Source: Stigmatella aurantiaca DW4/3-1
Lineage (GTDB): Bacteria; Myxococcota; Myxococcia; Myxococcales; Myxococcaceae
Direction: 5' to 3'
DNA: 64,000 nucleotides
Assembly (NCBI RefSeq): GCF_000165485.1
Contig: NC_014623.1
Location: 1,569,501-1,633,500, forward strand
The translations under genes were made by a program, and so were the position numbers. A model generated the notes under the pieces. The model ran no database searches. It saw only the letters and a list, made by a program, of their open reading frames with translations, and had not been told where the DNA came from. Shown in pieces: positions 27,854 through 56,993 of the stretch. Every line of letters starts with the position of its first letter. Position 1 is the first letter of the stretch.

Positions 27854-28647
27854 GACCCTCCCGGCTCATCGCCCCGCTCTACCTGCTGCTGAGCCTGGTG
27901 CCCATCTACTGGCTGGTGAGCATGTCGCTGAAGACGAACGAGGAGATTTTGGGCCCGTTCTCGCTCTTCCCGAGGTTGCCCACGCTGGCCAACTACCTGG
28001 TCATCTTCACGGAGCCGGATTGGCGCCAGGGCTACATCAATTCGCTCACCTACGTGGGCATCAACACGGTGCTCTCGGTGGTGCTGGCGCTGCCCGCGGC
28101 GTATGCCTTTTCGCGCTACCGGTTCCTGGGGGACACGCACCTGTTCTTTTGGCTGCTGACCAACCGCATGGCGCCCCCGGCCGTGTTCCTGCTGCCCTTC
28201 TTCCAGCTCTACTCGAGCATCGGCCTGTTCGACACGCCGTGGGCCGTGGCGCTGGCGCACATGCTCTTCACGGTGCCGCTGGCGGTGTGGATCCTCGAAG
28301 GCTTCATGTCCGGGGTGCCACGCGAGATCGACGAGACGGCCTACATCGACGGCTACAGCTTTCCGCGCTTCTTCCTGCGCATCTTCCTGCCGCTCATCCG
28401 CTCGGGCGTGGGCGTGACGGCGTTCTTCTGCTTCATGTTCAGCTGGGTGGAACTGCTGCTGGCGCGCACGCTGACCTCGGTGGAGACGAAGCCCATCGCC
28501 GCCACGATGACGCGAACGGTGAGCGCGGCGGGCATGGACTGGGGCGTGCTCGCCGCTGCGGGAGTCCTCACGCTCATTCCGGGCGCGGTGGTCATCTACT
28601 TCGTGCGCAACTACATCGCCAAGGGCTTTGCCCTGGGGAGGGTCTGA
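27850..28647 (+). CDS. glpQ: Glycerol ABC transporter permease GlpQ-like
   Basis: 265 residues, MalG-like CUT1 permease. About six membrane segments and the EAA loop in FMSGVPREIDETAYIDGYSFPRFFLRIFLPLIRSG. Start overlaps the stop of the previous permease gene (ATGA). It forms the second channel half. Followed after 6 bases by the DUF2160 gene, as in known glycerol ABC operons. Confidence 0.9.
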
Positions 28648-28653
28648 GCCGCC

Positions 28654-28922
28654 ATGGACTTTCAATGGATGGCGTGGACCTTGGAAACGGCCCTGTTCTT
28701 CGGGGTCATCGCCGCACTGCTGCTGGCCTATACCGTCTGGGGACTGGTTTCTCCTTCGGTCCCCCGGCGTGGCTGGTTGCCCATGCCCACGGGACGGGGA
28801 GACCGCCTGTTCCTGGGGTTGATGGGCAGCGCATGGATCAACCTTGCCTGGCTTGGGCTGACGGAGGCCCCGCAGGGGATCGCCGTGGGCCTTTCACTGC
28901 TGTTCATGCTCGTCATCGGAAG

Positions 28923-28932
<10 letters not shown>
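28654..28932 (+). CDS. DUF2160 small membrane protein of the glycerol ABC system
   Basis: 92 residues with three hydrophobic segments (TALFFGVIAALLLAYTVWGLV, LFLGLMGSAWINLAWLGLT, GIAVGLSLLFMLVIG) and the DUF2160 core PRRGWLPMPTGRGDRLFLGLM. It lies between the permease and solute-binding genes, the position DUF2160 proteins take in glpSTPQV loci. Probably a small accessory subunit of the transporter. Overlaps the next gene by 10 bases. Confidence 0.88.
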
Positions 28933-30725
<1,793 letters not shown>

Positions 30726-30744
30726 CGCACACGGTGTGAGGGCG

Positions 30745-30813
30745 GCGGGTTCGATTCCCGCCGCCTCCATCCCGAGAAGCCCAGCAATCTTAACGGGTTG
30801 CTGGGTTTTTCTT
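30745..30813 (+). repeat. Left attachment-site repeat (attL): 3' half of a tRNA-like domain plus terminator
   Basis: Bases 30745-30761 form a perfect T arm (GCGGG TTCGATT CCCGC), followed by a 7-base acceptor 3' strand CGCCTCC and A at 30769. With a GGGGGCG 5' strand this gives a G3-U70 pair and A73, the pattern of tmRNA or tRNA-Ala. No 5' half exists here: glpV coding sequence ends 20 bases upstream. A terminator hairpin follows. Perfectly repeated at 44418-44486; weaker similarity continues to 30869, inside the integrase 3' end. Confidence 0.85.
30777..30811 (+). terminator. Rho-independent terminator in left repeat
   Basis: CCCAGCAA (30780-30787) pairs with TTGCTGGG (30798-30805) around a 10-base loop and is followed by TTTTTC. 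It can terminate the glycerol operon and, in reverse, the integrase gene, but by position it belongs to the tRNA-like gene end that the element targets. Confidence 0.8.
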
Positions 30814-30859
30814 GGTCCTCGTTTTCATCATGTGCCTCCAGTGTGCCCCTCTGGCGTCT

Positions 30860-32047
30860 CTAGCCCAGAGCAGCGCGCGGCTGGGGAATGGGACGATCCA
30901 GTTCCTGCACCGCACTCTCCCGTGCCTCGGGTGACAGGTGCGCGTACCTCATGGTCATCTCGATGGTGGCGTGCCCCATCAACTCCTGGATGACCTTGAG
31001 AGCCACGCCCCGCATCGCAAGGTGGCTGCCGTAGGTGTGGCGTAGGTCGTGCCAGCCGATGGAACCCTCCGGGCGGCTGACTCCTGCCCTACGCAGCGCT
31101 CGCAGGAGCGGGTGCTTAGTCATCCCAGCGGTGAGCGGGCGACCGTCCGTCTGGCAGAACACGTAAGGGCCGCATAGGTGCCGGTGTGCCTTGAGTGCTT
31201 CCACCGTTGACGTGGGCAGGTCCACGGTCCTTTCCCGTCCACCCTTGGGCAGCCCCACCACGTCGCGCCAGATCGTCCGGCGCACGTTGAGTTTGCCGCG
31301 CTGCAAGTCCAGGTCTGCCCACTGGAGCCCGATCAACTCTCCAAGCCGCAGCCCCGTCTTGAGCGCCACGAGGATCAACGTCCGCCACTCCGGCTCAGCG
31401 GCATTACTCATGCGCTCGGCTTCCTCGAAGGAGAGGAAGTCAAAGGCGGGCTTGTCCGTCTTGAACAGCTTGACGCGCGGGACGTGTTGGAGCACGCCCT
31501 GTTCTTGAGCCAGTGCCAGCAACTTGTGCAGGACCGTCAGAACGTTGTTGATCGACTTGAGGGAGAGCAGCTTCACCGCACCGGAGCCCTTGCGCTTGAG
31601 GAGGGCCGCCCGCGTGGGAGTTTCCTTCCGTGCGCGCGCCCCCGAGGGCTTCTTACGCATGGCCGCCTTGAAGTCTTCGATCTCCGCTGGACCGATGGCA
31701 TCAAGGGGCATGTTGCCGAACGCGGGGATCAGGTGATCATCCAGGATCTGCTGCTTGGTGACGACGCTGGAGTGCTTATTGTTGTTCTCGCTGTACGTCA
31801 GGAAGCGCGGGACGAACTCCCCGAGGGTGAGAACCCGACCCGCGCCGTTCTCCTTTCCGAAGGTTCCGGTCAAGAGTGCATGGCGTATCTGTCGCTCGTA
31901 CTCTTCAGCCCCCCTGCGGGTGTTGATGGGCGAGGCCTTGCGGATCCGCTCCACCCTGCCGCTGGGGTGCTGGTACTTGACGTCCACCCACCACGCCTCT
32001 TGCACCTTGCCCTCCTGAGTCTTCCACTGCCGCAGTCTGACGCTCAT
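30860..32047 (-). CDS. int: Tyrosine-type site-specific integrase
   Basis: 395 residues. N-terminal arm-binding and SAM-like core-binding regions (LTLGEFVPRFLTYSENNNKH), then the catalytic domain with the R-H-x-x-R-H-Y set: TGLRLGELIGLQWADL, HDLRHTYGSHLAMRG, VIQELMGHATIEMTMRYAHLSPEA. It catalyses integration and excision of the island at the flanking repeats. Start overlaps the stop of the excisionase gene (ATGA). The 3' end lies inside the repeated flank, only about 50 bases from the perfect repeat. Confidence 0.93.
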   Translation of the reverse strand: MSVRLRQWKTQEGKVQEAWWVDVKYQHPSGRVERIRKASPINTRRGAEEYERQIRHALLTGTFGKENGAGRVLTLGEFVPRFLTYSENNNKHSSVVTKQQILDDHLIPAFGNMPLDAIGPAEIEDFKAAMRKKPSGARARKETPTRAALLKRKGSGAVKLLSLKSINNVLTVLHKLLALAQEQGVLQHVPRVKLFKTDKPAFDFLSFEEAERMSNAAEPEWRTLILVALKTGLRLGELIGLQWADLDLQRGKLNVRRTIWRDVVGLPKGGRERTVDLPTSTVEALKAHRHLCGPYVFCQTDGRPLTAGMTKHPLLRALRRAGVSRPEGSIGWHDLRHTYGSHLAMRGVALKVIQELMGHATIEMTMRYAHLSPEARESAVQELDRPIPQPRAALG

Positions 32048-33144: not shown

Positions 33145-34047
33145 TTGTTCCGACCCTTCACCCCAGGTTTTGCGCTCGCCTCCCTGCTGGTGAGCCTCAC
33201 CGCTGCGGCACAGGCCGCGCCCGCAGGGCGCCCCGTCGTTCTCACGGGCAAGGCTGGCGATTCACCGTTGATCTATGTGGCGCCTGGCACCGTCACGGTG
33301 ATCCTGCTGGGCGCTCCGATCCTGCGTGAGTCTGCCCAGGTGGAGGGCCGCGCCCGCTTCGCTGTATTCGAGGTGAGTGATCAAGGCGTGACGCTCTCGC
33401 CTTTGGCAGCGCTCGGTCCCGGTGAACGGCTCGCGCTGCGAGTCACCTACCGCGAGGGCTCACCCGCAAGCGTCGTGTTCCTGCTGACTGGGCAACCGGG
33501 CGCGGCGGATGGCTTGGTCAACGTGAGCCGCCCGCCGCAAACTTTCGAGGCGTGCCGCGTGGAACTGTCCGCCACGCGCGAGCGGTGCGAGGCGCAAGCC
33601 AAGGAACTGGAGGCGTTGAAGGCCCGGCCCGCAGCCTTGAGCCCTGCTGCCGTGGCGCTCGCGGGCTTCGTGACCAAGAAGGGCATGAGGGGAGCAGAGT
33701 TTGAGAAAGCGTGCTTCGCCGCGCGTGGGAGCGAGCTTCGCCCCGTCGTGTGCTGGGGCCTCGGGGGGGCAACGTGGAGCGTCGTTGTCCTTGATGTGAG
33801 CAACACCGGGGGAGAGCCGTGGGCGCCAGCGTGGGCCGAAGTTACGCCCGCAGGAGGGGAGCCGCGCCGCGCTCGCGCGGTCCTCTCTGGGCAAGCAACC
33901 ATCCCGCCGGGCGGTGTGGTGAGCGTGGCCGTGGAAGTGGAGATGCCCGCGCGTGAGGAGGAAGCATGGCTAGGAGCGCTGCACGCGGTGCGGGTGTGCA
34001 ACAGTGACGGGAGCCGCTGTCTGTCCATTCCCGAGGTGAAGCTGTAG
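33145..34047 (+). CDS. DUF2381 family secreted protein (myxobacterial TIGR02268 type)
   Basis: 300 residues from a TTG at 33145 preceded by GGGAGG. Signal peptide (FALASLLVSLTAAAQA). The body shows the DUF2381 pattern: an N-terminal beta domain (LIYVAPGTVTVILLGAPILRESAQVEGRARFAVFEVSDQGVTLSP, LGPGERLALRVTYREG), a coiled-coil-like CRVELSATRERCEAQAKELEALKA, and a second beta domain ending LHAVRVCNSDGSRCLSIPEVKL. This is a large paralogous family restricted mainly to Myxococcales; members commonly precede a membrane Ser/Thr kinase gene, as here (22-base gap). Exact role unknown; perhaps an envelope sensor or ligand-binding partner of that kinase. Confidence 0.85.
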   Translation: MFRPFTPGFALASLLVSLTAAAQAAPAGRPVVLTGKAGDSPLIYVAPGTVTVILLGAPILRESAQVEGRARFAVFEVSDQGVTLSPLAALGPGERLALRVTYREGSPASVVFLLTGQPGAADGLVNVSRPPQTFEACRVELSATRERCEAQAKELEALKARPAALSPAAVALAGFVTKKGMRGAEFEKACFAARGSELRPVVCWGLGGATWSVVVLDVSNTGGEPWAPAWAEVTPAGGEPRRARAVLSGQATIPPGGVVSVAVEVEMPAREEEAWLGALHAVRVCNSDGSRCLSIPEVKL

Positions 34048-34069
34048 CCACTGGCGAGAGGTGCACGGC

Positions 34070-35974
34070 ATGTTCGCGGATTTTGATCCCTTGGACTTGA
34101 AGCCCGGCCAGATGGTGAGCGACTGGCGCATTGTCCGACGCATCGGGAGCGGCGGTTATGCCGTCGTCTACGAGGTGGAGAGGGACGGCGAGCGCTTCGC
34201 GCTCAAGGTGGCCTGTCAGACAGAGCGCAGCATTGATCCGAGGCAGACGGACGCGCGCGCGCGGCGCGAGGTGGCGTGCCTCCAGCAACTCAGCCACCGG
34301 AACATTATCCGCATGTTGACGAGTGGCCGGTGGCCGCATGCGCGCTCTGGCTTCCACTACATCGTTCTAGATTTCGTGGACGGCTACACGCTCGCCCGCT
34401 GGGTCGAGCGGACTAACCCGACGCCGCATGAAGTCGTCGTCCTGTTTCTCAAGCTGTTTGACGCCCTGGAGCACATGCACGCGAAAAAGGTGCTCCATCG
34501 GGATTTGAGCCTGAGAAACATCATGGTCACCAAGGATGGCGAGCCGGTGATCATCGACTTTGGAGCGGCGGACTATGCGACCGCTGAAGATTTGACCGAC
34601 GGGCCGCTACCCCCAGGAACGCCGCGCAACCGCAGCCCCGAGGCTCAAAGCTTCTGGGATGAAAACCGCCTCAAGCACGGGGCCCGTTACACGTTCAAGG
34701 AAACGGACGATATTTTCGCGCTCGGGGCCAACCTCTACGACGTGCTGACGGATCCGACACCGGAACGCAGCGAGCGGCGGCCCGTGCTCAATAGCATGTT
34801 GCTGATGCCGCCCACCCCGTATCGGGCAACCAAGGGGCGCGTTCCAGGGGAGTTGAGCGCCTACGCGATGAAGCTGATCCATCGTGACCTGGAGGTGCGG
34901 CCTGCGACCGCGAAGGATGCGCGGCGCCTGCTGGCAGACTTGGAGCGCTACGAGGGCGCCGAGTGGCGAGAGCTCCCCATTCACCCGGCATCCTCGCAGC
35001 TACTGCCAGAGCCCCCGGCAACGGAGCCCTTGCCAGTGGAAGCGCGACAACCCGAGGGCCCGCAGGAGCCGATCCCTTCCCATCCGTTCCCGGTGCAGGC
35101 GGGGTCAGCGGATGCGGCGACCGTGCCTTCTGCTGCGGCCGGGGGGCCTGTGCAGCACATCCCGCGCCGTGCGTGGCTGCGTCCGGTGTTCCTCGGGACG
35201 TTGGCTCTCTCTGTCTTCGCGGCTGTCGTGGCCGCATCCGTGCTGCATAGGCCAGCGCAACCCGAACCGCCCCCCGTGGCCAGGAGCGCACCAGCAGAGC
35301 AACCCCCAGCCTCAAGCCCTCTGGCCGAAAAGCCGACAAGCCGCCCCGAACGGTTAGCCTCGCCTCTCCCTACCCAGAAGGAGGCGAGCCTGTCCGTGAA
35401 GCTGCCCGACAACTCCCCAACGCTCACCAACGGCGTACCCGACCCGCAGCAGGTCCAGAAGGCCAGCGGGCGGCGCGCGCTCATCAAGAAGTGCGCGGCG
35501 CTCGTGGCCTCCGTCGCATGGCTTGAGGCGGGCTGCACTGGCGTGCAGACGCGCCCGGATCCCGAGCCGTGCCCCGAGGAAGCCGTTAAGGCGATGCGGA
35601 AAGAGCTAGGGTGGTCAGTGGGCTACCAATACTCCGGGCCCGGCATCCTGCTGGACGTGACCAAGGGGACCTACGAGGAGCAACGCGAGCAACCCACGAC
35701 CGTTTGGAAGGATGGGCCCGTTACGGGGGCGCTGATCAGGGCGGAAGGCAAGGCGCCTGCGGGGATGAGGGTAGATGGGCATCTGTGGACGACGGGAGAT
35801 CGCATCTATGGACGATACGTCCGTGCCCACCTTCCAGGCGGGCGCACCGTGCCGATCTGCCTCGAACTGGCGAACCAGGGCGAATTGGGCTCGACCCTGG
35901 AAGAGGGCTCGAAGCCCGGCGCCCCTGTGGCCTCCAAGGTGTCCGGGACGGTAGCCGTTGAGCGGTGGAGGTGA
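34070..35974 (+). CDS. Membrane Ser/Thr protein kinase (Hanks type)
   Basis: 634 residues. I chose the ATG at 34070, 8 bases after GAGAGG; GTG 34061 is an alternative. Kinase domain residues about 10-310 is complete: RIGSGGYAVVYEV, catalytic Lys in RFALKVAC, HRDLSLRNIMV with Asn, VIIDFGAAD, and an APE-like NRSPEA. A Pro-rich linker and one membrane helix (VFLGTLALSVFAAVVAASVL, about residues 373-393) follow, then an outside domain (residues about 480-634) containing a Cys (EAGCTGVQTRPDPEPCPEEAVKAMRKELGW). The outer domain probably senses an envelope signal. Forms a two-gene unit with the DUF2381 protein. Confidence 0.9.
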   Translation: MFADFDPLDLKPGQMVSDWRIVRRIGSGGYAVVYEVERDGERFALKVACQTERSIDPRQTDARARREVACLQQLSHRNIIRMLTSGRWPHARSGFHYIVLDFVDGYTLARWVERTNPTPHEVVVLFLKLFDALEHMHAKKVLHRDLSLRNIMVTKDGEPVIIDFGAADYATAEDLTDGPLPPGTPRNRSPEAQSFWDENRLKHGARYTFKETDDIFALGANLYDVLTDPTPERSERRPVLNSMLLMPPTPYRATKGRVPGELSAYAMKLIHRDLEVRPATAKDARRLLADLERYEGAEWRELPIHPASSQLLPEPPATEPLPVEARQPEGPQEPIPSHPFPVQAGSADAATVPSAAAGGPVQHIPRRAWLRPVFLGTLALSVFAAVVAASVLHRPAQPEPPPVARSAPAEQPPASSPLAEKPTSRPERLASPLPTQKEASLSVKLPDNSPTLTNGVPDPQQVQKASGRRALIKKCAALVASVAWLEAGCTGVQTRPDPEPCPEEAVKAMRKELGWSVGYQYSGPGILLDVTKGTYEEQREQPTTVWKDGPVTGALIRAEGKAPAGMRVDGHLWTTGDRIYGRYVRAHLPGGRTVPICLELANQGELGSTLEEGSKPGAPVASKVSGTVAVERWR

Positions 35975-36212
35975 GCCGGGCCCGGTAGAGCGCTTGCGGG
36001 CATTGGACAGGCAACGCGCGTCGGCCAGGTGAAGCTGGCCCGGTGGCTCCCTTTCGCATCGAGGCGGGCCTACCGGGGCGTTCCGCTGATGCTGTAGCCA
36101 GAGATCGCGCCGCGTCTAACCTTGGGCGTCGTTCCATGTCCCTGCACATGCCAGGTAGTGTTTCCCTCCGTTGCGCGGCGCCCTTTCGCGTGCTGCCAGG
36201 AGCCGATCCCAC

Positions 36213-37412
36213 ATGGCTACTTCTCGCCAACCCTGGAGCGTCCCGGGGGTGATTCTCTTCTCTCACGGCGATCTCTCGTATGAGGTGGATCTGTCGCGTC
36301 CGTTGGTCGAAGAGTTGGCGCAATCCAGGCTCGGGGAAATGACAGTCCCAGCCTGGGAGCGCACCGAGAAGAAGCGCCTGCGGGAAGTCATCGTCCGGTC
36401 CCTGCCGCCCACGTCGTCAGACGAGCCCGAAACGCTGGAGAGGATGCGCGCGCGGCTCCGGGAAGAGGCGCACCTCGCCACGTACCTGCAACACCCGAGA
36501 ATCGCCCGCACCCTCGGGCCCTACGAAGTCCAAGGCGTTCTCTACATCGTGTCTGACCGTGTAGAGGGCACCTCGATCAACACCCTGATCACCTACTCGC
36601 AGATGCGCGAGAAACTCCTCTCCCCGGCGTTCTGCCTCTACGTGGGCGCCGAAGTCGCGGGAGCCCTGCACTCCGCACACACCTGCAAGGACGAGAACGG
36701 CGCCCCGCTGGGCATCGTTCATCGGGACTTGAACCCCGCCCGCATCTTCCTGGAGCCAGAGGGAGGGGTGATACTGACGGACTTCGCCCGCGCGCGCTCC
36801 CTGCTGCCGGGCCGAGTGGCATCGACGCTGCCGCGCCCTCAAGGCGACGTGTTCTACTGCTCCCCCGAGGCGTTGCTCTGCGAGGAGACCGATCCGCGCT
36901 CGGATCTGTTCTCACTGGGGCTCGTGCTGCTGGAACTGGCCACTTGGCGACACCTCTACAGCACCGCCACCGTGCGGCCCGACGACTTGGAGGAGGCGCT
37001 AACGGAGAAGGTAAAGGGGAAGGTTCTGGACGCGGCGATGACGGCCATGGAGGCAGACCTACCGGACCATGCCGAAGACTGCATCCTGCGGGCTGCCACG
37101 TTCACCCGGGAAGAAGTGGACGAGCTCACCCAGCCGCTGGCGCACCCGCTGCGCGCCATCGTCCGCAGGTTGATCCAGCGGAACCCGGAAGATCGCTATC
37201 AGTCGGCGGCTGAAGTGGAGGCGGAACTTCGGGCGGGCCTTGCTGCGCTGGGAGCCCCCTACGGGCCCAAGGAGGCGCTAGACGAGGTGCTGCTCTCTCT
37301 GACGGGGGCCAGCATGAGCCGGGACGTTCTCGGGCCCACGAGCGAGAGCCAGCTACCGCCCAACATGGTGACGGAAGAGGACATCATCAACGAGCGGGAC
37401 AGCACTCCCTAG
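36213..37412 (+). CDS. Predicted protein pseudokinase
   Basis: 399 residues from the ATG at 36213 (CAGGAGC ribosome-binding site). Clearly a protein-kinase fold (EEAHLATYLQHPRIARTLGPYEVQGVLYIVSDRVEGTS, IVHRDLNPARIFLEPEGGVILTDFARARSLL, VFYCSPEALLCEETDPRSDLFSLGLVLLELATW), but key residues are changed: no glycine-rich loop, the VAIK Lys appears as Arg in VIVRSLP, the Asn after HRD is Arg (HRDLNPAR), and DFG is DFA. The C-terminal tail ends MVTEEDIINERD. It may act as a scaffold or bind substrates for the active kinase upstream. Cytoplasmic; no membrane segment. Confidence 0.82.
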   Translation: MATSRQPWSVPGVILFSHGDLSYEVDLSRPLVEELAQSRLGEMTVPAWERTEKKRLREVIVRSLPPTSSDEPETLERMRARLREEAHLATYLQHPRIARTLGPYEVQGVLYIVSDRVEGTSINTLITYSQMREKLLSPAFCLYVGAEVAGALHSAHTCKDENGAPLGIVHRDLNPARIFLEPEGGVILTDFARARSLLPGRVASTLPRPQGDVFYCSPEALLCEETDPRSDLFSLGLVLLELATWRHLYSTATVRPDDLEEALTEKVKGKVLDAAMTAMEADLPDHAEDCILRAATFTREEVDELTQPLAHPLRAIVRRLIQRNPEDRYQSAAEVEAELRAGLAALGAPYGPKEALDEVLLSLTGASMSRDVLGPTSESQLPPNMVTEEDIINERDSTP

Positions 37413-38482: not shown

Positions 38483-38608
38483 ATGCGGTGCATGACCCCA
38501 CATCGTCGAATCAAACGGAGGAAGAAGAAGGGCCTGCCCAAGCCGTGCGGCAGCTCGCTCGTCTTCATCCCGGCCGAGGATGGCACCTACATCCCGGTTC
38601 TGCTGTAG
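38483..38608 (+). CDS. Small basic protein, 41 residues
   Basis: The frame begins MRCMTPHRRIKRRKKKGLPK, continues PCGSSLVFIPAEDGTYIPVLL and stops at 38608. A near-perfect ribosome-binding site (AGGAGGTGAG at 38471-38480) precedes the ATG at 38483, which strongly supports translation. Highly basic N-terminal half (RRIKRRKKK) suggests nucleic-acid binding; the C-terminus is a neutral strand. No known family recognised. A second small gene with its own ribosome-binding site follows after 32 bases. Confidence 0.6.
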   Translation: MRCMTPHRRIKRRKKKGLPKPCGSSLVFIPAEDGTYIPVLL

Positions 38609-38640
38609 AGCCCCGACGTCGCCATGGGAGGAGAGTTGCT

Positions 38641-38790
38641 ATGAGCCATCAACCGGCTTCCCGCCGTTGCGAATGTCCGCGAGTGAGGTACACGACCACT
38701 TCGCGCGGCATTAGGATCTATGCTTGGTGGTACGGCGAAGAATTCTTCGTCTTACACACTCGGGGGTGTGTGAACAGAAGGACGCTTTAG
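38641..38790 (+). CDS. Small Cys-containing protein, 49 residues
   Basis: The frame reads MSHQPASRRCECPRVRYTTT, then SRGIRIYAWWYGEEFFVLHT, then RGCVNRRTL. A GGGAGGAGAG ribosome-binding site lies 5 bases before the ATG. Three Cys (CEC and a late C) and a Trp-Trp-Tyr aromatic core suggest a compact, perhaps metal-binding, fold. No family recognised. Together with the preceding 41-residue gene it forms a small-protein pair of the island. Confidence 0.6.
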   Translation: MSHQPASRRCECPRVRYTTTSRGIRIYAWWYGEEFFVLHTRGCVNRRTL

Positions 38791-39827
38791 ACGACCCAGC
38801 GGCGCCGACTCTCGCAAGGGGGGCGGCGCCGAAGCAAAGGACATGAGCGGGGCTACGGGATAGTCGCCTTCAGTGCCGCGCCCGAGTACGTGCTATAGGC
38901 GCAAGGAGACGTACCAAGTCCCGGTGGCCAAGTTGGCAATCGCGCAGCCCGGCTGGCGTGCAGCGCGTGCTCGAACTGGCTCCTGAGAACTGGACCGCCA
39001 CGGTGCAGCGCCCCGAGTGTCGCCACCGAGGTTGGGGGGTACCAATTCCACCGAAATCACCGACTACCAGAGGAGCACCCGGTGATTTCAGAGCGGTTCT
39101 TCGCCCGAGCCGACAGCGCGCCGATGCCGCAGGGCTGGTGCTCCGTTCGTGATCCACGGCGGTTTCGGGCCGGACTGGTCCTCCCCGAAGAGGGCGACGT
39201 CAGATCGAGGGTGGTGCCCTACTGGTCCTTCCTGCCTGTGGCGGGGGACTACATCCCCCGGGCCCCTGTGGCTCCCGTCCGGTCCTCGCAAACAACGGCT
39301 CGGCTCGTCCTGAAGCGTGTATCAGTGATCGCAGGGCGGCGCATTCTGAACGGATGCTCCGTGGTCCCCTGGTCTTCGGTGATGAGGTGGTCCTCAAGAC
39401 CTCGGTGGTTCCAGTAAACAGGGGTGGTCCTCTGGTCCTCGGTGAAACCGGTGGAAGTGGTCCTCACCCTGGTCGGTGGTGACACCCCGAGGCCCTCGCC
39501 GAACTGGACGCTAACGTCTTCCGTCAGGCGGCGCTCGGGCTCCTCAAGCCGGCTGCCACGGAGTAGGGCTGCCTGTCACGCATCGATCGGCGCGCCGACC
39601 GACGGTGCTCGCCGGACGCATACGGTAAATGACTCGGTTACTGGCATTGATCCCGCCATGTTCCTCGTAACCCCCCGAAATTACCGGGCTAGAGGAGCGA
39701 CTTCAGCCCTCACCCCCCTCTCTTTTTAGACTAAAAGGAACCTCACTTGATCTAAGGCCCTGTAACGCTGTGCCAGATGCCGACTATATGGGGAGTTTCT
39801 CGCGAATTCTTAGCTGCGGAGGTGATC
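38791..39827. other. About 1-kb gap with GGTCCTC-rich sequence and a composition boundary
   Basis: No gene is convincing on either strand. The part 39160-39480 contains repeated GGTCCT/GGTGGTCCTC motifs (for example near 39176, 39224, 39279, 39361, 39389, 39424, 39436 and 39458). From about 39650 the base composition drops toward AT, marking the border of the sigma-factor operon. The sigma gene leader includes GCGGAGGTGATC just before its ATG. Confidence 0.5.
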
Positions 39828-40502
39828 ATGTCGAGCGATCCTCCTGATGAGGAAAGTAGAACTTCTTCTGCTCAAGCAGAATCAAGTCGGACATCGGTAG
39901 AAACGACGGACAGTGACGCGTCTCCAGAATCCGGCGAGGCAATAACTCCTCATCAAGAACAGGGCCGCAGTTCTGACGCACTGTCAGACGCAGAGCTAAT
40001 GCACAGGATTGCACAAGGGGATCCAGCTGCACTCACTCTTCTTCGCAACAAACATGCTCCGTATCTTCGGACGGTTCTTCCCGAATGGTGTGCAGAGGAC
40101 ATCCAACAAGACGTATTCGAAATTATCCTAAAGTCTGCGTCCACATTTGACCTCTCCCGCCCGCTGCGCCCATGGCTGAAGGCAATCGCTCGAAATAAAT
40201 TCGCCCGGTATGCTAAAGCGCAGGTAGGCCCCTCAAAGAGCCTGATTGCCGAGCAGAGCGGCGACACGCTCACGAGCGCTCACGACCTTCTAGAGAAGGA
40301 AGTGGATGCAATCAAACTCCATGAGGCGCTGGCAAAACTATCTACTAGCGACCAGAAACTGCTAGAAGACATCTACTTGGAGGAACTCGATCATTCTACG
40401 GTGGCCAGGAATCTCAATATTTCGCCTATCAATCTTCGAGTCCGTCTCTTCCGAGCGCGCAAGAAGCTTCTTGAGATTCTGACGAAAGGATCAAAGCAAT
40501 GA
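39828..40502 (+). CDS. ECF-type RNA polymerase sigma factor
   Basis: 224 residues. I chose the ATG at 39828 because GGAGGT lies 6 bases before it; the frame opens earlier at 39777. An acidic, Ser/Glu-rich tail (residues 1-50) precedes sigma-2 (LMHRIAQGDPAALTLLRNKHAPYLRTVLPEWCAEDIQQDVFEIILKSASTFDLSRPLRPWLKAIARNKFARYAK) and sigma-4 (EALAKLSTSDQKLLEDIYLEELDHSTVARNLNISPINLRVRLFRARKKLLEIL). No sigma-3, so extracytoplasmic-function type. First gene of a tight operon; overlaps the next gene (ATGA). Codon use is AT-rich and unlike the chromosome. It probably drives its own operon. Confidence 0.87.
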   Translation: MSSDPPDEESRTSSAQAESSRTSVETTDSDASPESGEAITPHQEQGRSSDALSDAELMHRIAQGDPAALTLLRNKHAPYLRTVLPEWCAEDIQQDVFEIILKSASTFDLSRPLRPWLKAIARNKFARYAKAQVGPSKSLIAEQSGDTLTSAHDLLEKEVDAIKLHEALAKLSTSDQKLLEDIYLEELDHSTVARNLNISPINLRVRLFRARKKLLEILTKGSKQ

Positions 40503-40903
40503 GTGCCCCTAGTTCGGAATGCTCTTGGTTCGAGCACCTGCTTGAGAGTGGTAACGACCTCTCAGAAGAGGATGAAGCACGCTATTTGGCTCATCTTGAA
40601 AATTGCGCCCACCACCGACAGGCGAGTGAAGACTCTGAGCGGATCATTCGGGCTCAAATTCGCAAGTACGCGACAGGATTCAAGACATCCCGTGTGGCAA
40701 CTGAAGCGGACTTTCTCGCTCTTGCTAGCGCTGGAGCAAGAATAAATCTTAGACTGAGGATGCACCAAAACGAGGAACCTATCGCACAACTCCAGCGCGA
40801 TGGAAGGCTTATTGGATATCTTCGCCTTGGGGAAGTCATCTTCAACAAAACGGCGACACTTGATGACCGTATCGCAGTGGTGAGACTTCTCGATGAACTC
40901 TAA
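40499..40903 (+). CDS. Putative anti-sigma factor with zinc-finger-like motif
   Basis: 134 residues, starting within the sigma gene stop (ATGA). Near residue 30 is RYLAHLENCAHHRQ, fitting the anti-sigma zinc motif HxxxCxxC with His in place of the last Cys. The remainder (EADFLALASAGARINLRLRM, PIAQLQRDGRLIGYLRLGEVIF, DDRIAVVRLLDEL) is soluble: no membrane helix, so a cytoplasmic sensor. Position, size and motif argue for an anti-sigma factor for the upstream ECF sigma. The similarity is short, so this remains a prediction. Confidence 0.65.
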   Translation: MSAPSSECSWFEHLLESGNDLSEEDEARYLAHLENCAHHRQASEDSERIIRAQIRKYATGFKTSRVATEADFLALASAGARINLRLRMHQNEEPIAQLQRDGRLIGYLRLGEVIFNKTATLDDRIAVVRLLDEL

Positions 40904-43679
40904 CTCAACTCCAAAACCATCGCTTGCTAACGCGATCACAGACTTTGCAAGCCGCATTGACCCACTCGCTCCTGGCGCTGAGCATCTTTTGGAGGCCATT
41001 AACCGAATTCCTCTCACAGTCGGTGAAGCCAAATGGTCAGAAGAAGTCAGCATCCTCTCTGCCTTGACCTACTACACCCCAAAATCCTACCAACAGGAGC
41101 GATTGCTGTGGGGAAACCTTCTCCGCAATGCACTTGCGGAATGGTCTGGCCCCGAAGCACTTCAAACAGCTTTAAGATTTTTCTGCGCTATGTGCACGTC
41201 CCCGTCGGGAACTGGCTTTTTCTTTGACGCCAATGGCCAGTCCATCATGCAATACAGAGCATTACGAAAACCAGACTCAGAACAAAAAACACACCAACTA
41301 GTCAAACTCCTAGCATATCTAACAGGCAAGAATGACGTTCTCGGCATTCCCTTGAGCGACTTCAGCAGTCTCTGGTTGCAAGAAGCTGCGCTTGACTGGT
41401 TCTTTATGCTTGGCCGCCAGAAAGGCTTATGGTTTGTCCCAAACCGGATCAAGTCTTTCTTCAAACAGGTTCCAGGCTGCCACCGATGGGAAGCAGTCGC
41501 ATGGCTGGCATGGCTTTCCTCAGAAAACAGGGATTCGGATCTAACCGACAAACTACAGTACGGGAGACTCTTATCATCCATCTTCAGGATTGTCGAAAGA
41601 GTAGGCGAAGGACTATCGAAGAGCGAAATCTCCATTGCTGTTCATTTTGGCTTAACCAAGTTTGAAGATCTCCCTCTGGACAAAGCCCTCCTCAAGTTCG
41701 TACAACTAACTCTTCTCATTCACGCGGGAGCACAGAATCTTGAAGAAGCGTTCGTGCGGAGTTTGCGCCGTGTGTTATGCGACGTGCCAGAACTCGCTGG
41801 CAGCGCTGCCTGCATGCTTTATAGCAAAACTAACCACCTAAATCCTGTCCACCATATTGCGCGCGACATTCTCCAGGAACCATTGCCTCCCGAGTGGGAG
41901 CACTATAAAAGCTTCTATCTGATCAATCGTGCGTTTCTCGGTTATCATTTGAAGGACCCCTCGTTCGTGCCATCCCGCGAATGGGCAATCGCCTGCACCA
42001 AACAAGACATGCCGCCACTGTCTCGTTTTATTGGGTTTGCAGCGAGCGGCATCTGGCCCGAGGCAATTTTGAACAGCGAAGGTGTGGTTGAACAAAGCGC
42101 CGACATCTTCTCCTTGGCTCCGAATAGTCTTGCAAGAAAGCTCGTTGATTGGGCAGACAAGGTTCGCGAGAGAATCAAAGAACTGGCTGAGCAAATGCTT
42201 GCCGGCACTCGTTCGTGGGCAACGTTACTACTCGAGTTTAATCAATTCTCACCTCCTCCAGATTGCCCTGAATACCTTCATCCCAAAGGGATCGACTTTC
42301 TTGAAGTTTGTCTCCGCATGGCTTTCACCCTGGAGACAGTTCACCCTGTTCCTCGAAGCATTATGGAGCAATTTCTTAACGGGATCGTCGAATGCGCCCG
42401 CCGAGAGGATGCATATGTATCAATGCTAGCCGCCTTGGAGTCTTACTCCAGAAGTTCTGAATTAATTGCCTCCAAATGGCTTCAGCAAATCAACAAGCGA
42501 ATGCAACCGAACCCCACACACGGTGGCTTGTTCGATAGATACCGCACTCGTCTGCGCAATTGGTGGAAGCGATGGGAAGCTCATCGCGAACTCGCGGCCT
42601 GCACCGCGTGGATTGAACGGATCAAGGCTTTACCTATGGAGGCACTCCAGTCGCAGGTGTCCTCGGTGTCTCCCTCCAAGGTTTTAAGACTCTTACCTAA
42701 ACATTCTACTGTGACGTACTGCATCCCTCAAGAACACGGGGAGTTTTTTCTGCTATCTGCCGTTCGAGCTCGCTGGCATATACGCTACTCATTCGCGAAG
42801 TGCTTGCTAGATAGAGACGCCTTCCTTGAGTATGAAGCATGGCTGAGCATGAAGAACCGCTCCAGTTACGAACTAGCAAATGAGGACACCCTCTTTCCTA
42901 AAGCCGAAATCCGCTATTTTGAAAGTGTAGTCAAGCCACTGGCGTCGGTACTGGCGCAAGTAGGACCTAATGCTCCATTCTCTTATGTCCCGTGCCTCAG
43001 TGTCTTAGCAGCAATGGAGAAGAACTATCGCGCGGGGATCCCTCCCTCGGTCCCTGCTCGCACACTTATTGAGCCCCTCAAGAATCTGGAATCACGACAT
43101 TACCCTGACGTCGTAACGGCCGTACTCAGTTTCAAAGTGTGCGAAGAAAGAGATGGAACGCTGGTTACAGAGTTCCCCCGGGTCCCACTATTTGAGCATA
43201 GCAAGCACTTGCATGCACAGGCTAATCCCTCGCTGTTGCATTGGTTAAGACATAATTTCTTTCCGGCAGCGCAAACGCTAGGCTTAGTTGGCTGCCGTGC
43301 CCTTCAGAGTTTTCCAAAGGGAATAGGCCAACAGACCCTAATGTGGGAGGCCATTGCAGTTGGTTTCAGCGGTATCTTCGGGTCTGTCGTCGGATTCTTC
43401 GAGTTCAGCAAGCAAGAGCTCATTGATGGACTTGAGTTCAAAGAAGGGATTGACCAAGAACCACCCACTTCGGCAACACTGCAAGAAGCAGCGCTTCGGC
43501 ATATGACTAAACATCGTCCGGGCCAGCGGATGCTAGGCCATTTAGGAGCCGCCGAGGTTTCCCAAGGAATCGTATGGCCGCTCAAGGACCGTGTGAATCT
43601 GATCGCCGGAGGCGGCTTTGTCGGCGCAATCCCCACATCCCACTTGGCTTACATCTTGAAGTTTCGCAGTGAACCGTAA
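40893..43679 (+). CDS. Large protein of unknown family (928 residues) in the sigma/anti-sigma operon
   Basis: The gene overlaps the anti-sigma gene by 11 bases, so it belongs to the same operon. I recognise no domain. The text is mostly helical, rich in Trp, Leu and aromatic residues (SLWLQEAALDWFFMLGRQKGLWFVPNR; RWEAVAWLAWLSSENRD; RTRLRNWWKRWEAHRELAACTAW), suggestive of a helical-repeat scaffold. Near residues 820-836 is a hydrophobic, Gly-spaced stretch AIAVGFSGIFGSVVGFFEF that could insert in a membrane. No signal peptide, no Walker motif, no obvious nuclease or protease site. Composition is AT-rich like its partners. Function unknown; a sigma-controlled effector is the working guess. Confidence 0.85.
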   Translation: MNSNSTPKPSLANAITDFASRIDPLAPGAEHLLEAINRIPLTVGEAKWSEEVSILSALTYYTPKSYQQERLLWGNLLRNALAEWSGPEALQTALRFFCAMCTSPSGTGFFFDANGQSIMQYRALRKPDSEQKTHQLVKLLAYLTGKNDVLGIPLSDFSSLWLQEAALDWFFMLGRQKGLWFVPNRIKSFFKQVPGCHRWEAVAWLAWLSSENRDSDLTDKLQYGRLLSSIFRIVERVGEGLSKSEISIAVHFGLTKFEDLPLDKALLKFVQLTLLIHAGAQNLEEAFVRSLRRVLCDVPELAGSAACMLYSKTNHLNPVHHIARDILQEPLPPEWEHYKSFYLINRAFLGYHLKDPSFVPSREWAIACTKQDMPPLSRFIGFAASGIWPEAILNSEGVVEQSADIFSLAPNSLARKLVDWADKVRERIKELAEQMLAGTRSWATLLLEFNQFSPPPDCPEYLHPKGIDFLEVCLRMAFTLETVHPVPRSIMEQFLNGIVECARREDAYVSMLAALESYSRSSELIASKWLQQINKRMQPNPTHGGLFDRYRTRLRNWWKRWEAHRELAACTAWIERIKALPMEALQSQVSSVSPSKVLRLLPKHSTVTYCIPQEHGEFFLLSAVRARWHIRYSFAKCLLDRDAFLEYEAWLSMKNRSSYELANEDTLFPKAEIRYFESVVKPLASVLAQVGPNAPFSYVPCLSVLAAMEKNYRAGIPPSVPARTLIEPLKNLESRHYPDVVTAVLSFKVCEERDGTLVTEFPRVPLFEHSKHLHAQANPSLLHWLRHNFFPAAQTLGLVGCRALQSFPKGIGQQTLMWEAIAVGFSGIFGSVVGFFEFSKQELIDGLEFKEGIDQEPPTSATLQEAALRHMTKHRPGQRMLGHLGAAEVSQGIVWPLKDRVNLIAGGGFVGAIPTSHLAYILKFRSEP

Positions 43680-44417
43680 CCGACCACTTCATCAATCGCT
43701 ATCCAGGGTGAGTATTTGCCTTTAGCAAGTACCAATCAGAGGAGGTAGAGACATGGCGAAGTTGAATGTTGTCACTAGGACATGCTTCGCCTTGCGCAGG
43801 TAGCTGTAGCGCCGCTAGGAACCTGTCGGAGAACCTCGACGACCCACTACATCATGCGTGGTGTGATCTAAACGCACCGTTACAGATCGTATGTAGGAGG
43901 CGGTTTTCGGAGGTACTCCGACAAGCTCCTAGGGCTCCAGTTCTTCCAGCATGCTGACGATATTTGTGTAGATGGGGATGCTGCGCTCCTGGCGCAGTTG
44001 CCCTCGCTCTTACGCCCTGTTCGGCCCAGGCTCTCCCGGCCTTCGTGCGACCTGGGCAGGACCGGTGGCGGCGGCCACGACTCTGCAAGAACGCTACCCG
44101 GCAACCAGTCGGATCATCTGACGGCCTGGATCCCTCAATCACCGTGCTCGGTAACAGCCAGGGCACACGCTACTATCATCCTCCCACGGAGGTTCTCGTG
44201 AGTTCGTGAGCCCTGGGAGACCGGGGAACTCAGGCCGCTCGTGTCCAAACAGATTGCCCCTGTTGAGCCGCATGTGCCCCCAGTGGGCCCCTCCAGCGGG
44301 GATTAGAATGGGACGAAACGGGACGAAACGGGATGGGGCGGCAGAACGAACCAACGGAAGTTCAAGGCGTTAGCCGGTAACAGCGCGACCTGCTTAGGGT
44401 TTTGCTTCCGCCTTGTT
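43680..44417. other. Gap of about 740 bases at the right end of the island
   Basis: It holds the very short frame at 43753 and otherwise no gene I can support. On the minus strand near 43940-44020 a short open stretch (LRQERSIPIYTNIVSMLEEL followed by a stop) reads like the end of an eroded gene but is too short to assign. Just before the right repeat (about 44370-44417) the sequence faintly resembles the D and anticodon arms of a decayed tRNA, without a pairing acceptor stem. Confidence 0.45.
43753..43803 (+). CDS. Possible 16-residue peptide with strong ribosome-binding site
   Basis: The frame reads MAKLNVVTRTCFALRR and stops at 43803. GAGGAGGTAGAGAC directly precedes the ATG, an optimal Shine-Dalgarno region. 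It could be a tiny peptide gene, a leader peptide, or the 5' remnant of a truncated gene. No similarity recognised. Confidence 0.3.
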   Translation: MAKLNVVTRTCFALRR

Positions 44418-44486
44418 GCGGGTTCGATTCCCGCCGCCTCCATCCCGAGAAGCCCAGCAATCTTAACGGGTTGCTGGGTTTTTCTT
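44418..44486 (+). repeat. Right attachment-site repeat (attR)
   Basis: Identical over 69 bases to 30745-30813, with the T arm at 44418-44434, acceptor 3' strand 44435-44441, A at 44442 and the terminator at 44450-44484. Orientation is the same as the left copy, as expected for a single integration event. Confidence 0.85.
44450..44484 (+). terminator. Rho-independent terminator in right repeat
   Basis: Second copy of the CCCAGCAA / TTGCTGGG hairpin followed by a T run, as in the left repeat. Confidence 0.75.
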
Positions 44487-44542
44487 TGTCCTCGGTTTCT
44501 TCATTTGCCTTCAATGTACCCCTCTGGCGTCTCTAGCCCAGA
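44487..44542. pseudogene. int remnant: Relic flank of a second integrated element (integrase 3' end)
   Basis: After the perfect 69-base repeat the similarity to the left flank continues for 56 bases with about 8 mismatches, up to 44542. In the left copy this stretch is the non-coding spacer and the last codons plus TAG of the integrase gene (minus strand). The right copy keeps CTCTGGCGTCTCTAGCCCAG, i.e. Leu-Gly-stop of an integrase, after which homology ends abruptly. So a related element once lay to the right and has been deleted. Confidence 0.65.
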
Positions 44543-45232
44543 CACCTACCTAGTGGAGTGTCTTACAAGTTCTTCGACAGAGTCGTGAGGGTGTCGACGA
44601 ATCGATTTGTTTGGGCCCACCGTCGCCCTGAAGGACACGAATGCGGGTGCAGGCGCCCTTGCCGACGGAGGTCCGTTCAAACCTGTAGGACAGCCGTACC
44701 AGTTCGTCCCGAGTGCGCCGAGGGGCGACACCTCGAACCAACCGGTCCTACAACCCTACCCGTTCGTCCAGAGCGCGCCCGAGAGGGGTCCCCTCGAACG
44801 GATTAGCGAAGGGGAGCCGTGTGCCGAGGGAAGAGCGGGACGGCTGGCGCGGGAGGACCCGTCAGGACGGGGGGACCGCGCCGAGACGAGTGGCCCGCGA
44901 CCTGCATTCCCAAGACGTGGGCCCGTGTTCTCCGTCTCGTCACTCGCGGGTCTGTGCGAAGGCTTCGAGTGCGTGAACGACATCGCTCCCGACGATGTCC
45001 AAAGACTTCGCGGACAGTCCACGAGGCCGCTGCGGAGAGACGCACGTCGAGCGCTTTTCGCCACAGCACACCTGAGCCCTCTCTGGCCACGCTCCTCGCC
45101 CGTCCTCCCGTGGCCGGTCATCCGTGTCGTCAACCCAGCAGTCCCGCATGAGACCTCATGTCAGCCTGCGCGATGCGCTCCGTCATCCCGCCGTGGATCC
45201 ACGATAGTGTCGGGCACTGGAGGGCCCTGAGC
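44543..45232. other. 690-base gap with a diverged 60-bp direct repeat
   Basis: No supported gene. Two imperfect tandem copies of about 60 bases lie at 44676-44738 and 44738-44799, sharing TTCGTCC-GAG-GCGCC and ending in CCTCGAAC. The rest shows no family signal on either strand; the long frames look like GC-driven chance frames. Confidence 0.5.
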
Positions 45233-46276
45233 ATGCAGCCACGCATCTTCGTGACGGAGGACGACACGGACTGGCAGGTGCCGTTGGGCGGGCCAGGCCT
45301 GCTCCTGGACGTGCCGGCGGAGGCGCCCTGGAGACAGCGGCCCCAGATCCACGTCGAGGCAACCCGGCCGTACCTGCTGCGCATGGCGTTCCGGGGGCAG
45401 CCGCTGTTCTGGCTACGGGTGGACATCTATTGGGATGGGTGCGCGGTGCTGCGAGGGCCCTCCTCCCTGGAGGGATCCTTTCCGCGCATCACCACCGACG
45501 TGGCGCGACGCATGGGCGAGCCCGGCACCACTGCGTGGTGGACGCAATGGCTGCGCTGGTGGATCCAGTGCCTCCAGCAACCCGAGTCCTTGCTGCTGCA
45601 CACCGGGCGCTGGTGCCTCCGGCCGCTCCAGACAGTGCCCACGGTCGAGGCCCGGAGTCATCCTACGATGCCCACGGCGCAGGCCGGGGAGCGACCGGCT
45701 CCGCCCCATGCGCTGGACGCGGCGCTGAAGCACCAGACGTTCTGGACGGAGGACTGGCGCGGGCATGGCTTCCACGACTTGGAGGTGAGCAGTGGCAGCG
45801 TGCTGGCGCTGCGGGCGCCTTCCGCCGAGAACGATGGTCGCGTGAAGGCGTTTCGCAAGCAGGCGCGGGACGGGACGCTCCCCCCGGTGCTGCTGTTCTA
45901 CTTCGCGCTGGTGGGCAAGTGGCTGGTGGTGGACGGGCACGACCGGTTGCACGCGGCGCGCCTGGAGAACCGCACGCCGCCGCTGCTGGGGCTCTGGTCG
46001 GTCTTCGAGCAGCCAGTGCCTCAGGACGAGCGCACGCGGGCTCGGCAGCAGGGGTCCATGCAGGCCGCGGAGTTCCGGCTGCGGGGCAGGCCGATGGATG
46101 TGGACGCGGTCAACCGCCTCCTCGTGCGCGACCACGAGTCGGTGCGGAGGTTCGCTGGCACCCGCGGGTATCCCCTGCGGGGTGGCGGCGCTACCTGGAG
46201 GGCGGAGGTCGCCGCTTGGAAGAAGGGGTTGAGCGCAACCGCGTCCCCGGACGACTGGGCGGCCTTTGTGGAGTGA
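45233..46276 (+). CDS. Hypothetical protein with a ParB/sulfiredoxin-like loop
   Basis: 347 residues from the ATG at 45233, 12 bases after GGAGGG; earlier ATGs at 45158 and 45173 lack ribosome-binding sites. N-terminal half is a Trp-rich beta domain (LLLDVPAEAPWRQRPQIHVEATRPYLLRMAFRGQPLFWLRVDIYWDG). The C-terminal half contains PPVLLFYFALVGKWLVVDGHDRLHAARLENRTPPLLGLW, which recalls the DGHHR nucleotide-binding loop of ParB/sulfiredoxin-fold proteins. No other domain recognised; no signal peptide. A single-gene unit in a mosaic region. Function not assigned. Confidence 0.7.
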   Translation: MQPRIFVTEDDTDWQVPLGGPGLLLDVPAEAPWRQRPQIHVEATRPYLLRMAFRGQPLFWLRVDIYWDGCAVLRGPSSLEGSFPRITTDVARRMGEPGTTAWWTQWLRWWIQCLQQPESLLLHTGRWCLRPLQTVPTVEARSHPTMPTAQAGERPAPPHALDAALKHQTFWTEDWRGHGFHDLEVSSGSVLALRAPSAENDGRVKAFRKQARDGTLPPVLLFYFALVGKWLVVDGHDRLHAARLENRTPPLLGLWSVFEQPVPQDERTRARQQGSMQAAEFRLRGRPMDVDAVNRLLVRDHESVRRFAGTRGYPLRGGGATWRAEVAAWKKGLSATASPDDWAAFVE

Positions 46277-46692
46277 GGGGCGCCGTGAGCCCGCGCCATC
46301 TCTCTGCATTGCGACAGTTGTCTCGCGTGCCCGTCATCGACATATAGGAAGGACAGGAGCCTTGTTGGGGGGAGCGGGCGGCAGCAAAACGAGAGGTGAG
46401 TGCCGCTGACGGCTACCCCATGAGCCGCTTCTGGCCGAACGGGCCACGGAGGCAAGTCGAGTGCACTTGCCTTCATGGATTGAAGGTCATTTAGCTGGAA
46501 ATTTGCAACTCATGCCCACGGTGTTGGCGGTGCTGAGGGATGTCCAAGAATAGGCCATGGAACCACAGAGATTGCTCTCCGCCGAAGGGGAGATGTGGCG
46601 ACTGTCCGGCAGGGGCCACTCCCGCGTGACGGTCGCCCCATCTTTCAAAGCGACTTCCTCATCGTCTCGGGTAGGCCGCACTGCTGATGCGC
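46277..46692. other. 416-base gap without a gene
   Basis: I see no supported gene, repeat or RNA here. GC content is lower than in the chromosome and similar to the following minus-strand lipoprotein gene, whose 3' end begins at 46693. A terminator for that gene was not evident. Confidence 0.5.
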
Positions 46693-47940
46693 TCAACTGT
46701 CAAAGTAGGGCGAAAGCGGACCTGCCCAAAGGCTGGGGACGTCTCGCGAATTGGTGCCAGGAGCCGGGTTCGGTTGATAAGCGCGAAACTTGCCGTTCGC
46801 GGTACCGACCTGCGGAAACAACAGGCGTTGCGAGTAATCCATCTTCATGATTTCGACGGCTCCGGTGGAACTCACCGTATAGCTCTGCCCCACGGCAACC
46901 GAAACGGCAGTGGGCAAGGTGCACTTCCGGAAACCATAGCCCTGCGGCGGCGTACAGGCCGACTGCGCGCCCGTCGACGTATTTCGGATCGTCAGGGTGC
47001 CAACGCCAATACCCGATGCGATGAATCCGCCGAGTTCAGTGAAGGTGCGAGCGTAACGCGCGTTCGCGTACGCGACGGTACAGCCGACGCAATCGGTCGA
47101 GTAAGCGTAGTACGGCTGCCCTCCCAAGGTCGTCCCGTTCGACAACCGGAAACCGTATTGCGGCAATCGCGTTGCCGGGTGTGCTGTGTCGTTGTCGTTC
47201 ATGTAGGAACGGTACTGGCCATTGGCGGATCCATATCGCCATGAGGTGCCGCTGTCTTCGGACCATGCCACATGTTCGCGCGGATCAAGTGACAGGAGGG
47301 CGCCCGTCGCCGCCGCGCTCAGCTCATTGCGCGCATGGGGGCCTGTCAGGGCGGTATCGGCAAGCGGCATGTTGAACGAGAAGAAGTGGGCCGCCGGATT
47401 GGCGTGCGCATTGCTCACAATCAATGCGTACATCGTCCCGCCTTGGAGCGTTGCGGGGGTGTTCACCCAGGCAAGAACCGGGGTTGCGTCATTGAACTCC
47501 GCCTTGGCTTCATTGTGACGGGTGCAGGCGTTGACGGTTTCCGTGGCAATCACGGTCGCCGGAAGCCCCGTGGTGGGGTTGATCTGCACGAGACTCCCAC
47601 GGAGAAGCCCGCCGTCTCCAGCGCCATAACCCGCGTTGTTGGCGTCCCAGCAATTCGCACCGCGCAACTTGAAGCCGAAGTAGAACCGATCAATGGTGAT
47701 GGTGCTGCTTGGCACGAAGCGCAGCAGCGCCCGGTAGTTCGCGGCTTTCAGTGGCGAGTCGTTGACGTTCTCGATTCCGATTGGAATCGAGGCGGCCTTT
47801 CCACCCGCTGCGAGTGCCAGTGCCGAGCTTCCTCCGGCCAGGTGAGGATTGCCGTCGTCGTTGCCGCCACCGCATGCGGGGAGCAGGGTCACCGCGGCGG
47901 CAAGTGCAGCGCTCCATGTCGAGGATTGCAAGAGAGTCAT
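46693..47940 (-). CDS. Lipoprotein of unknown function, probably foreign
   Basis: 415 residues. Lipoprotein signal WSAALAAAVTLLPACGGGNDDG with a Gly-rich linker, a style common in Betaproteobacteria and Gammaproteobacteria. Beta-rich body (ANYRALLRFVPSSTITIDRFYFGFKLRGANCWD; ALIVSNAHANPAAHFFSFNMPLAD; HVAWSEDSGTSWRYGSANGQY; VAVGQSYTVSSTGAVEIMKMDY). The central part could be a carbohydrate-binding or jelly-roll domain, but I cannot name it. GC and codon use are visibly lower than in the neighbouring chromosome, suggesting transfer. Confidence 0.75.
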   Translation of the reverse strand: MTLLQSSTWSAALAAAVTLLPACGGGNDDGNPHLAGGSSALALAAGGKAASIPIGIENVNDSPLKAANYRALLRFVPSSTITIDRFYFGFKLRGANCWDANNAGYGAGDGGLLRGSLVQINPTTGLPATVIATETVNACTRHNEAKAEFNDATPVLAWVNTPATLQGGTMYALIVSNAHANPAAHFFSFNMPLADTALTGPHARNELSAAATGALLSLDPREHVAWSEDSGTSWRYGSANGQYRSYMNDNDTAHPATRLPQYGFRLSNGTTLGGQPYYAYSTDCVGCTVAYANARYARTFTELGGFIASGIGVGTLTIRNTSTGAQSACTPPQGYGFRKCTLPTAVSVAVGQSYTVSSTGAVEIMKMDYSQRLLFPQVGTANGKFRAYQPNPAPGTNSRDVPSLWAGPLSPYFDS

Positions 47941-48160
47941 GGGAAGTGGTTGAGTTTCCGTGTGCGAGGCGGTGACACTTTACTCGAGTCAAAACGGGAC
48001 TTGGCATGGACGGGTGAGCCAGTCGGCATTCTTTCGTTCTTCAAAGGTATTGAACTGTAGGTCAGCTCCTTCATGGTAAAGCTTGCAAAGGTGGTTCCAG
48101 GTCGCCGTGCTGGCGGTAAATCTCGCCTGCCAGGATCAGATAGGAAGGAGAGGAGGACGA

Positions 48161-49414: not shown

Positions 49415-49530
49415 GCCTGCCCCAGTCGAGTGCTCTCCCGCCCTTGTGCCCTACCGGGGCTCTTGGCCGCCACCACCGGCCGTACCGCCCCCTCTTTCCA
49501 ACGACGGCCGGACCGCTCTGGTGGGTCAGC

Positions 49531-50538: not shown

Positions 50539-50793
50539 GGGATATTCGCCTCCACCACGTGAGTGGAACTCTTTCGAACCACCACCATAAGCCGCCAGAA
50601 TTCTTGCGGCGTTGGTGGGCTGCCGTCGTGGAAGAACAACTGAAAATGGGGTTTTTCAGCTTTTATTCCGGCCGGGTCTGCCAACGCATCATCAGGGCAT
50701 CTCCACGGGGCTGCGGATGCGCATCTGCGGGTGCGTTGGGCTTCACGATCCGTGTATGGTCCCTGAGCCACTGTCAGCCCGGAGGCCCAGTCC

Positions 50794-51865: not shown

Positions 51866-51870
51866 CGAAC

Positions 51871-52197: not shown

Positions 52198-52215
52198 CGA
52201 ACAGGAGCAACGACC

Positions 52216-55438: not shown

Positions 55439-56993
<1,555 letters not shown>

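Follow-up and report, generated by a model that had tools for sequence, protein, structure and literature searches.

A 100-base stub behind an intact tmRNA-tail island in a myxobacterial chromosome as the probable remnant of a head-to-tail neighbour

Tandem accretion, decayed neighbours and islands at tmRNA genes are already known, as set out in published accounts (PMC5704250, PMC3146451, PMC2297512). In accretion involving cis-mobilizable elements (CIMEs), as PMC5704250 describes it, a newcomer integrates at an att site belonging to an element that is already in place, whether resident or decayed, which gives rise to head-to-tail arrays. The locus studied here resembles that situation in having a head-to-tail junction beside a decayed neighbour, but CIMEs are there described as keeping both att sites, whereas the neighbour here shows a left end only. 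A further likeness is to the tandem islands of Dehalococcoides, whose borders are marked by ssrA 3′-end copies; according to PMC3146451, however, the repeats there are all confined to the 100 kb downstream of ssrA and a serine recombinase acts as the integrase, while the cores described below occur chromosome-wide and go with a tyrosine recombinase. Salmonella genomic island 1 likewise can insert between genes at a secondary site and occurs in tandem arrays, yet it mainly uses the thdF 3′ end, one secondary site is reported (PMC2297512), and there is no tmRNA-tail core, unlike here. What sets the present case apart from these systems is the chromosome-wide distribution of tmRNA-tail cores, docking at a gene-end hairpin, and putative arm sites by which broken arrays can be read.

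The window, that is, the whole stretch of 64,000 nucleotides that we analysed (G000:C1:1569501-1633500), lies inside a single myxobacterial contig of 10,260,756 bases (10.26 Mb). A sequence-only reading had reported that 56 bases at 44487-44542 resemble the left flank of an integrase-bearing island. This similarity is real: the bases form the distal part of a 125-nt match between 30745-30869 and 44418-44542, recovered by a repeat search of the window (94% identity, start-to-start distance 13,673) and by a whole-genome search (right copy against left copy, E 3.5e-50). As that reading had also stated, they contain the Leu-Gly-stop of the integrase, as the reverse complement of CTG-GGC-TAG, and the similarity ends abruptly. 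The right copy stops ten bases inside an integrase gene; ten bases without similarity follow (44543-44552), and then a dispersed repeat begins. The features of the locus are collected in Table 1.

The intact island spans 30745-44442, with cores and arm-like sites that match at its two ends. The repeat opens with 25 nt that equal the tmRNA 3′ tail; the tmRNA gene itself lies elsewhere, at 7.58 Mb, and the 25-mer is identical at 30745 and 44418, giving the direct core repeats at both ends that mark a tyrosine-integrase island; the integrase frame is 91 bases from the core. Residues R234, K268, H333, R336, H359 and Y368, which we take to be catalytic, are invariant in five homologues. A genome search with the integrase gave 15 matches, of which five are full-length, one of these lying beside the tmRNA gene, and named relatives occur in Hyalangium, Archangium, Pyxidicoccus, Corallococcus, Myxococcus and others. 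Among 1891 plasmid records we found no close relative (all below 60% identity), the integrase stretch had no DNA match in the phage collection, and a Pfam scan of ten island ORFs detected neither relaxase or conjugation genes nor phage structural genes. The first 6.7 kb of the island (30745-37468) have a second copy, 96% identical, at G000:2446949-2453617. Within the island there are also a weak match to a Y2_Tnp transposase domain (37716-38501, minus strand, E 5.4e-05), perhaps a fragment, and a 22-nt tandem repeat in six copies at 32722-32892. Neither ARAGORN nor Rfam at gathering thresholds detected a tRNA or tmRNA gene in the window, so that the island does not abut an intact RNA gene; an island end at such a gene was accordingly rejected, the left end lying instead in a host gene-end hairpin.

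Table 1. Features of the island, its left flank and its right junction, in window coordinates
Feature	Position	Strand	Evidence or remark
Host open frame, 901 aa, left of island	28020..30725	+	ORF listing; 3′ part kept in all congeners
Host gene-end hairpin, stem GGGCGGCGGG/CCCGCCGCCT, loop TTCGATT	30740..30766	+	fold; 14 bases after stop codon; contains left core
Left 25-nt core	30745..30769	+	identical to tmRNA 3′ tail
Putative integrase arm site, island left end	30829..30851	+	0 mismatches
Tyrosine integrase, 395 aa, open frame intact	30860..32047	-	Pfam Phage_integrase E 5.9e-32
DUF2381 / TIGR02268 protein (cargo)	33145..34047	+	domain matches (Pfam, NCBIfam scans)
Ser/Thr protein kinase (cargo)	34061..35974	+	Pfam
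Ser/Thr protein kinase (cargo)	36171..37412	+	Pfam
Sigma-70-like protein (cargo)	39777..40502	+	Pfam
928-aa protein without known domain (cargo)	40893..43679	+	no match in Pfam or NCBIfam
Right end of island (block B)	44170..44417	+	tandem GGGAYG motifs at 44310, 44320, 44330; related right ends elsewhere in genome
Putative integrase arm site, island right end	44271..44293	+	1 mismatch
Right 25-nt core	44418..44442	+	identical 25-mer
Left-end stub of second element	44443..44542	+	stops ten bases into its integrase gene; includes 44487-44542
Third, decayed putative arm site, inside 44487-44542	44502..44524	+	3 mismatches
Dispersed repeat, ~470 bp, possibly MITE-like, adjoins stub	44553..45022	.	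imperfect inverted ends, read by eye

Across the genome the tmRNA tail occurs in 28 copies (at most 3 mismatches), one of which is the tmRNA gene itself, against none for the reversed control. These cores are spread over the chromosome with left and right partners mixed, ARAGORN detected neither a tRNA nor a tmRNA gene at any of the remaining 27, and tandem GGGAYG-like motifs stand in the 220 bases before 13 of the 28, compared with 12 of 4000 random stretches. Among the elements of this genome, like left and right ends have a short direct repeat in common: the word CATGTGCCYYCAGTGTGCCCCTC, in this form or in a close variant, is shared by window-type (r1) left ends and block-B right ends, TGTTGCACGTATGTCGCA occurs both in block A1 and at the integrase end at 6803232, and the tmRNA-site integrase end and block A2 have about 20 bases in common around TGTTGCG. 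By analogy with the lambda-type model, we interpret these words as probable integrase arm sites. All 16 cognate pairs among the 40 compared scored above all 60 shuffles, pairs having been labelled cognate only after the shared words had been seen, and all 24 non-cognate pairs stayed at noise level (scores 6 to 9, within the shuffle range). The putative arm sites reveal which left and right ends belong together. In the window, the 23-nt r1 arm word is found at 30829, 44271 and 44502, with none in 100 shuffles and a chance expectation of zero.

To the left, 29200-30760 aligns in all six congeners at 90-96%, and the left-flank gene is also kept in a sister genus (G042). In the six congeners and G042, the stop codon is followed by GGCGGCGGG, a seven-base loop (GTTGATT, GCCGATT, CACGCTT, CTCGAGT, TTCGATT or TTCGAAT) and a G/C-rich right arm. 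In this genome the local hairpin folds, as it does in all of these seven except G001, whose best 75-base fold pairs otherwise; ten further orthologues from two other genera differ in sequence, and most of them still fold into a strong hairpin. Since the hairpin stands at the same place in the congeners and G042, the left core appears to lie in a hairpin of the host similar to the tmRNA tail. Behind the hairpin, the sequence differs among this genome, G001, G002/G003, G004, G005 and G006: G001 has another end type there (by eye), G006 a lipoprotein gene, and the others differ again. The stub is absent behind the hairpin in all six congeners (blastn; by eye). The sequence-only reading had named one finding that would count against it, namely that the 56 bases are ordinary host sequence. 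We consider this next to impossible, because six of six congeners, as well as G042, keep the left gene without these bases behind it, and we found nothing in its favour. Related genomes had also been proposed as a place to look for an intact element at this spot; none with this integrase turned up at the orthologous place in the congener stretches fetched (20 kb each, except G001 with 40 kb, G005 with 2.5 kb and G006 with 4.4 kb). A search for the native right flank with the 19.5 kb behind the hairpin of G002 gave matches at scattered places in this genome.

The right junction reads as a cognate right end (44170-44417), a core (44418-44442) and a second left end (44443-44542), which is the chimeric junction of a tandem (accretion) array. 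A right end, a core and a left end with a third arm site together point to a head-to-tail junction with a second element, and the idea of two related elements in tandem, already voiced from the sequence alone, is borne out by this arrangement, with arm sites at 44271 and 44502. We therefore consider it likely that the 56 bases and the 44 that precede them are what survives of the left end of a second island of integrase type, placed head-to-tail behind 30745-44442, an island having docked in a tmRNA-tail-like host hairpin, accretion having followed at the same core, and the right-hand member having decayed to a 100-base stub. A similar junction exists in Corallococcus CA053C (L061), where a block-B-like end is followed by a tRNA-Asp-type core and then by an integrase-bearing r1 left end. 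The relic is closer to the left end at G000:2453593 (95.2%) than to the left copy in the window itself (94%), by a slight margin. A cis-mobilizable element keeps both att sites after integrase loss; behind the stub we found no remainder of the second element and no second right end, core or other att copy in 44560-64000, about 20 kb rightward.

Two other explanations of the junction deserve weighing. Just one intact island of the window has the 125 nt on both sides, as would be expected if a single island had an unusually long attachment repeat that belonged to both of its ends, with no second element. The two copies differ by 6%, however, and the stretch contains a third arm site and the end of an integrase gene. 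Moreover, other right ends of B type (2464894, 4544494) lack the stretch and run into other sequence, so that the stub belongs to a left end rather than to the right end, and we regard the long repeat as very unlikely. Somewhat less improbable, and still unlikely, is a chromosomal rearrangement between two cores that brought the stub here from elsewhere without any tandem integration at this place. The 28 cores with their mixed partners are consistent with such an exchange, and the 20 kb to the right have no synteny to what follows the hairpin in congeners. Against it, an extra event is required, and both sides of the junction are of cognate types, just as a tandem of like elements predicts.

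For the favoured head-to-tail tandem, the events may be pictured as follows. The integrase would recombine the core of a circular island with a chromosomal core, probably around GCGGG-TTCGATT-CCCGC. An island would initially have entered the host gene-end hairpin resembling the tmRNA tail, another would then have been added at the same core by accretion, and the right-hand island would finally have been reduced to the 100-base stub, by one deletion or by stepwise decay. Both the integrase-mediated recombination at the core and this order of arrivals are what we infer from the arrangement of ends.

Stubs of this kind are not confined to the window. Five of the 28 cores lead into a full-length integrase and nine into an r1 stub (partly by eye), the stubs reaching 36-125 nt from the start of the core. 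Because three copies of another type also align to 38, the three shortest stubs (36-40 nt) barely stand out, which leaves six as the safe number. Random deletion would be expected to leave some partial integrases, yet no core (0/28) leads directly into one; at the copy at 7562824, an integrase fragment lies 3.8 kb further on. We also considered integrase-less stubs as complete left ends kept for mobilization in trans. This is not a rule: the window stub alone extends beyond the arm site, which occupies positions 85-107 counted from where the core begins, and the others end at 36-82.

The sequence-only reading had further suggested that the mosaic of 44.5-55 kb might be left over from the lost element, and this was not borne out. 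The dispersed repeat that begins at 44553 has further copies in the genome near 734 kb, 1.24 Mb and 9.69 Mb, and parts of it in congeners. When the region was compared with congeners, as had been proposed, seven single-gene stretches (45-55.5 kb) matched scattered places. An att-like 25-mer (at most 4 mismatches, within 20 kb) was present in 3 of the 13 fetched congener regions that match genes of 44.5-55 kb, at 0.7 kb (L201), 1.2 kb (L210) and 9.6 kb (L212) from the matched gene. An origin of the mosaic in the second element is thus not supported.

Docking in a native hairpin applies to one of the two loci examined. At the integrase locus 6803232, the gene is present in G001, G002 and G003 without hairpin or tail, and this genome diverges from them at the stop codon; the notion that all dispersed cores sit in native hairpins was rejected on this ground. 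More widely, an RNA gene lies near the integrase end at 18 of 45 named loci. From the 27 loci without an RNA gene, 20 could be condensed to 17 sites, four Corallococcus loci being counted as one and L084, L091, L092, L094, L098, L100 and L101 left out (distant, partial or no recognizable core). At 6 of these 17 sites (L059, L062, L064, L071, L082, L099), an open frame with a length of 250 codons or more has its end no more than 30 bases before the core, compared with 401 of 18,400 random positions. Frame ends so close before cores could mean that elements dock where genes end, or that sequence has been eroded as far as the stop codon. At L059 and L062, tails of tRNA-Asp type come directly after the stops of protein genes, with an integrase present and no tRNA gene found there. 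Four Corallococcus integrase loci (L065, L066, L068, L070) lie behind the same protein gene, whose C-terminus is VQAKVTLIFAIQ, and have no recognizable tRNA-like core.

In a survey of 96 genomes of the family (at most 1 mismatch; reversed pattern absent from all 96), tail copies numbered 11-25 per genome in genus g1 (7 genomes), 19-33 in g3 (6), 4-20 in g7 (4) and 26 in g8 (1). The remaining genera had 0-13, and at least one copy was present in 61 of the 96 genomes, tmRNA genes included. Among the matches listed from the open-licence PMC literature, no title addressed dispersed tmRNA tails in myxobacteria. As a tentative proposal, which we hold to be possible and no better than that, the tmRNA-tail core could serve as a shared docking network in several myxobacterial genera, in which integrase subtypes with different arm codes use one core, dock at gene-end hairpins and the tmRNA gene, and leave dispersed arrays of modules, some of them integrase-less, carrying toxin-like lipoprotein genes and maybe moved in trans. 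The findings suggest a way for an integrase that is suited to the tmRNA tail to make use of gene-end hairpins of the host, and core and putative arm sites together provide a sequence code for reading broken island arrays in large genomes. Because the tail is found up to 33 times per genome in four genera, docking at it may provide these social bacteria with a considerable means of acquiring genes.

Small modules between two cores illustrate what such sites can hold. Two core-to-core modules of about 2.1 kb agree in 175 bases at the right end (94%) and in 38 at the left, but their interiors differ. A lipoprotein-like protein with a hydrophobic tail is encoded in three core-to-core modules. Its 50 matches in seven genomes include 30 with a locus, and a same-strand core lies 94-679 bases upstream in 7 of these 30 rows, or 6 of 28 distinct loci, against 0 of 30 in the reversed control. 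Such genes just behind cores are those at L009:11512-12150, G000:2464246-2464824, G000:9409814-9410397 and G006:C101:3403-3732. One of the core-linked loci is the orthologous hairpin place in G006. The protein may be a competition toxin with a partner gene, with a toxin of the SitA kind (PMC5562445) as one candidate. Other core-to-core modules contain large LysM/SH3 or DUF6861 proteins (L015:11228-13267, L024:6212-7765), which are perhaps polymorphic toxins.
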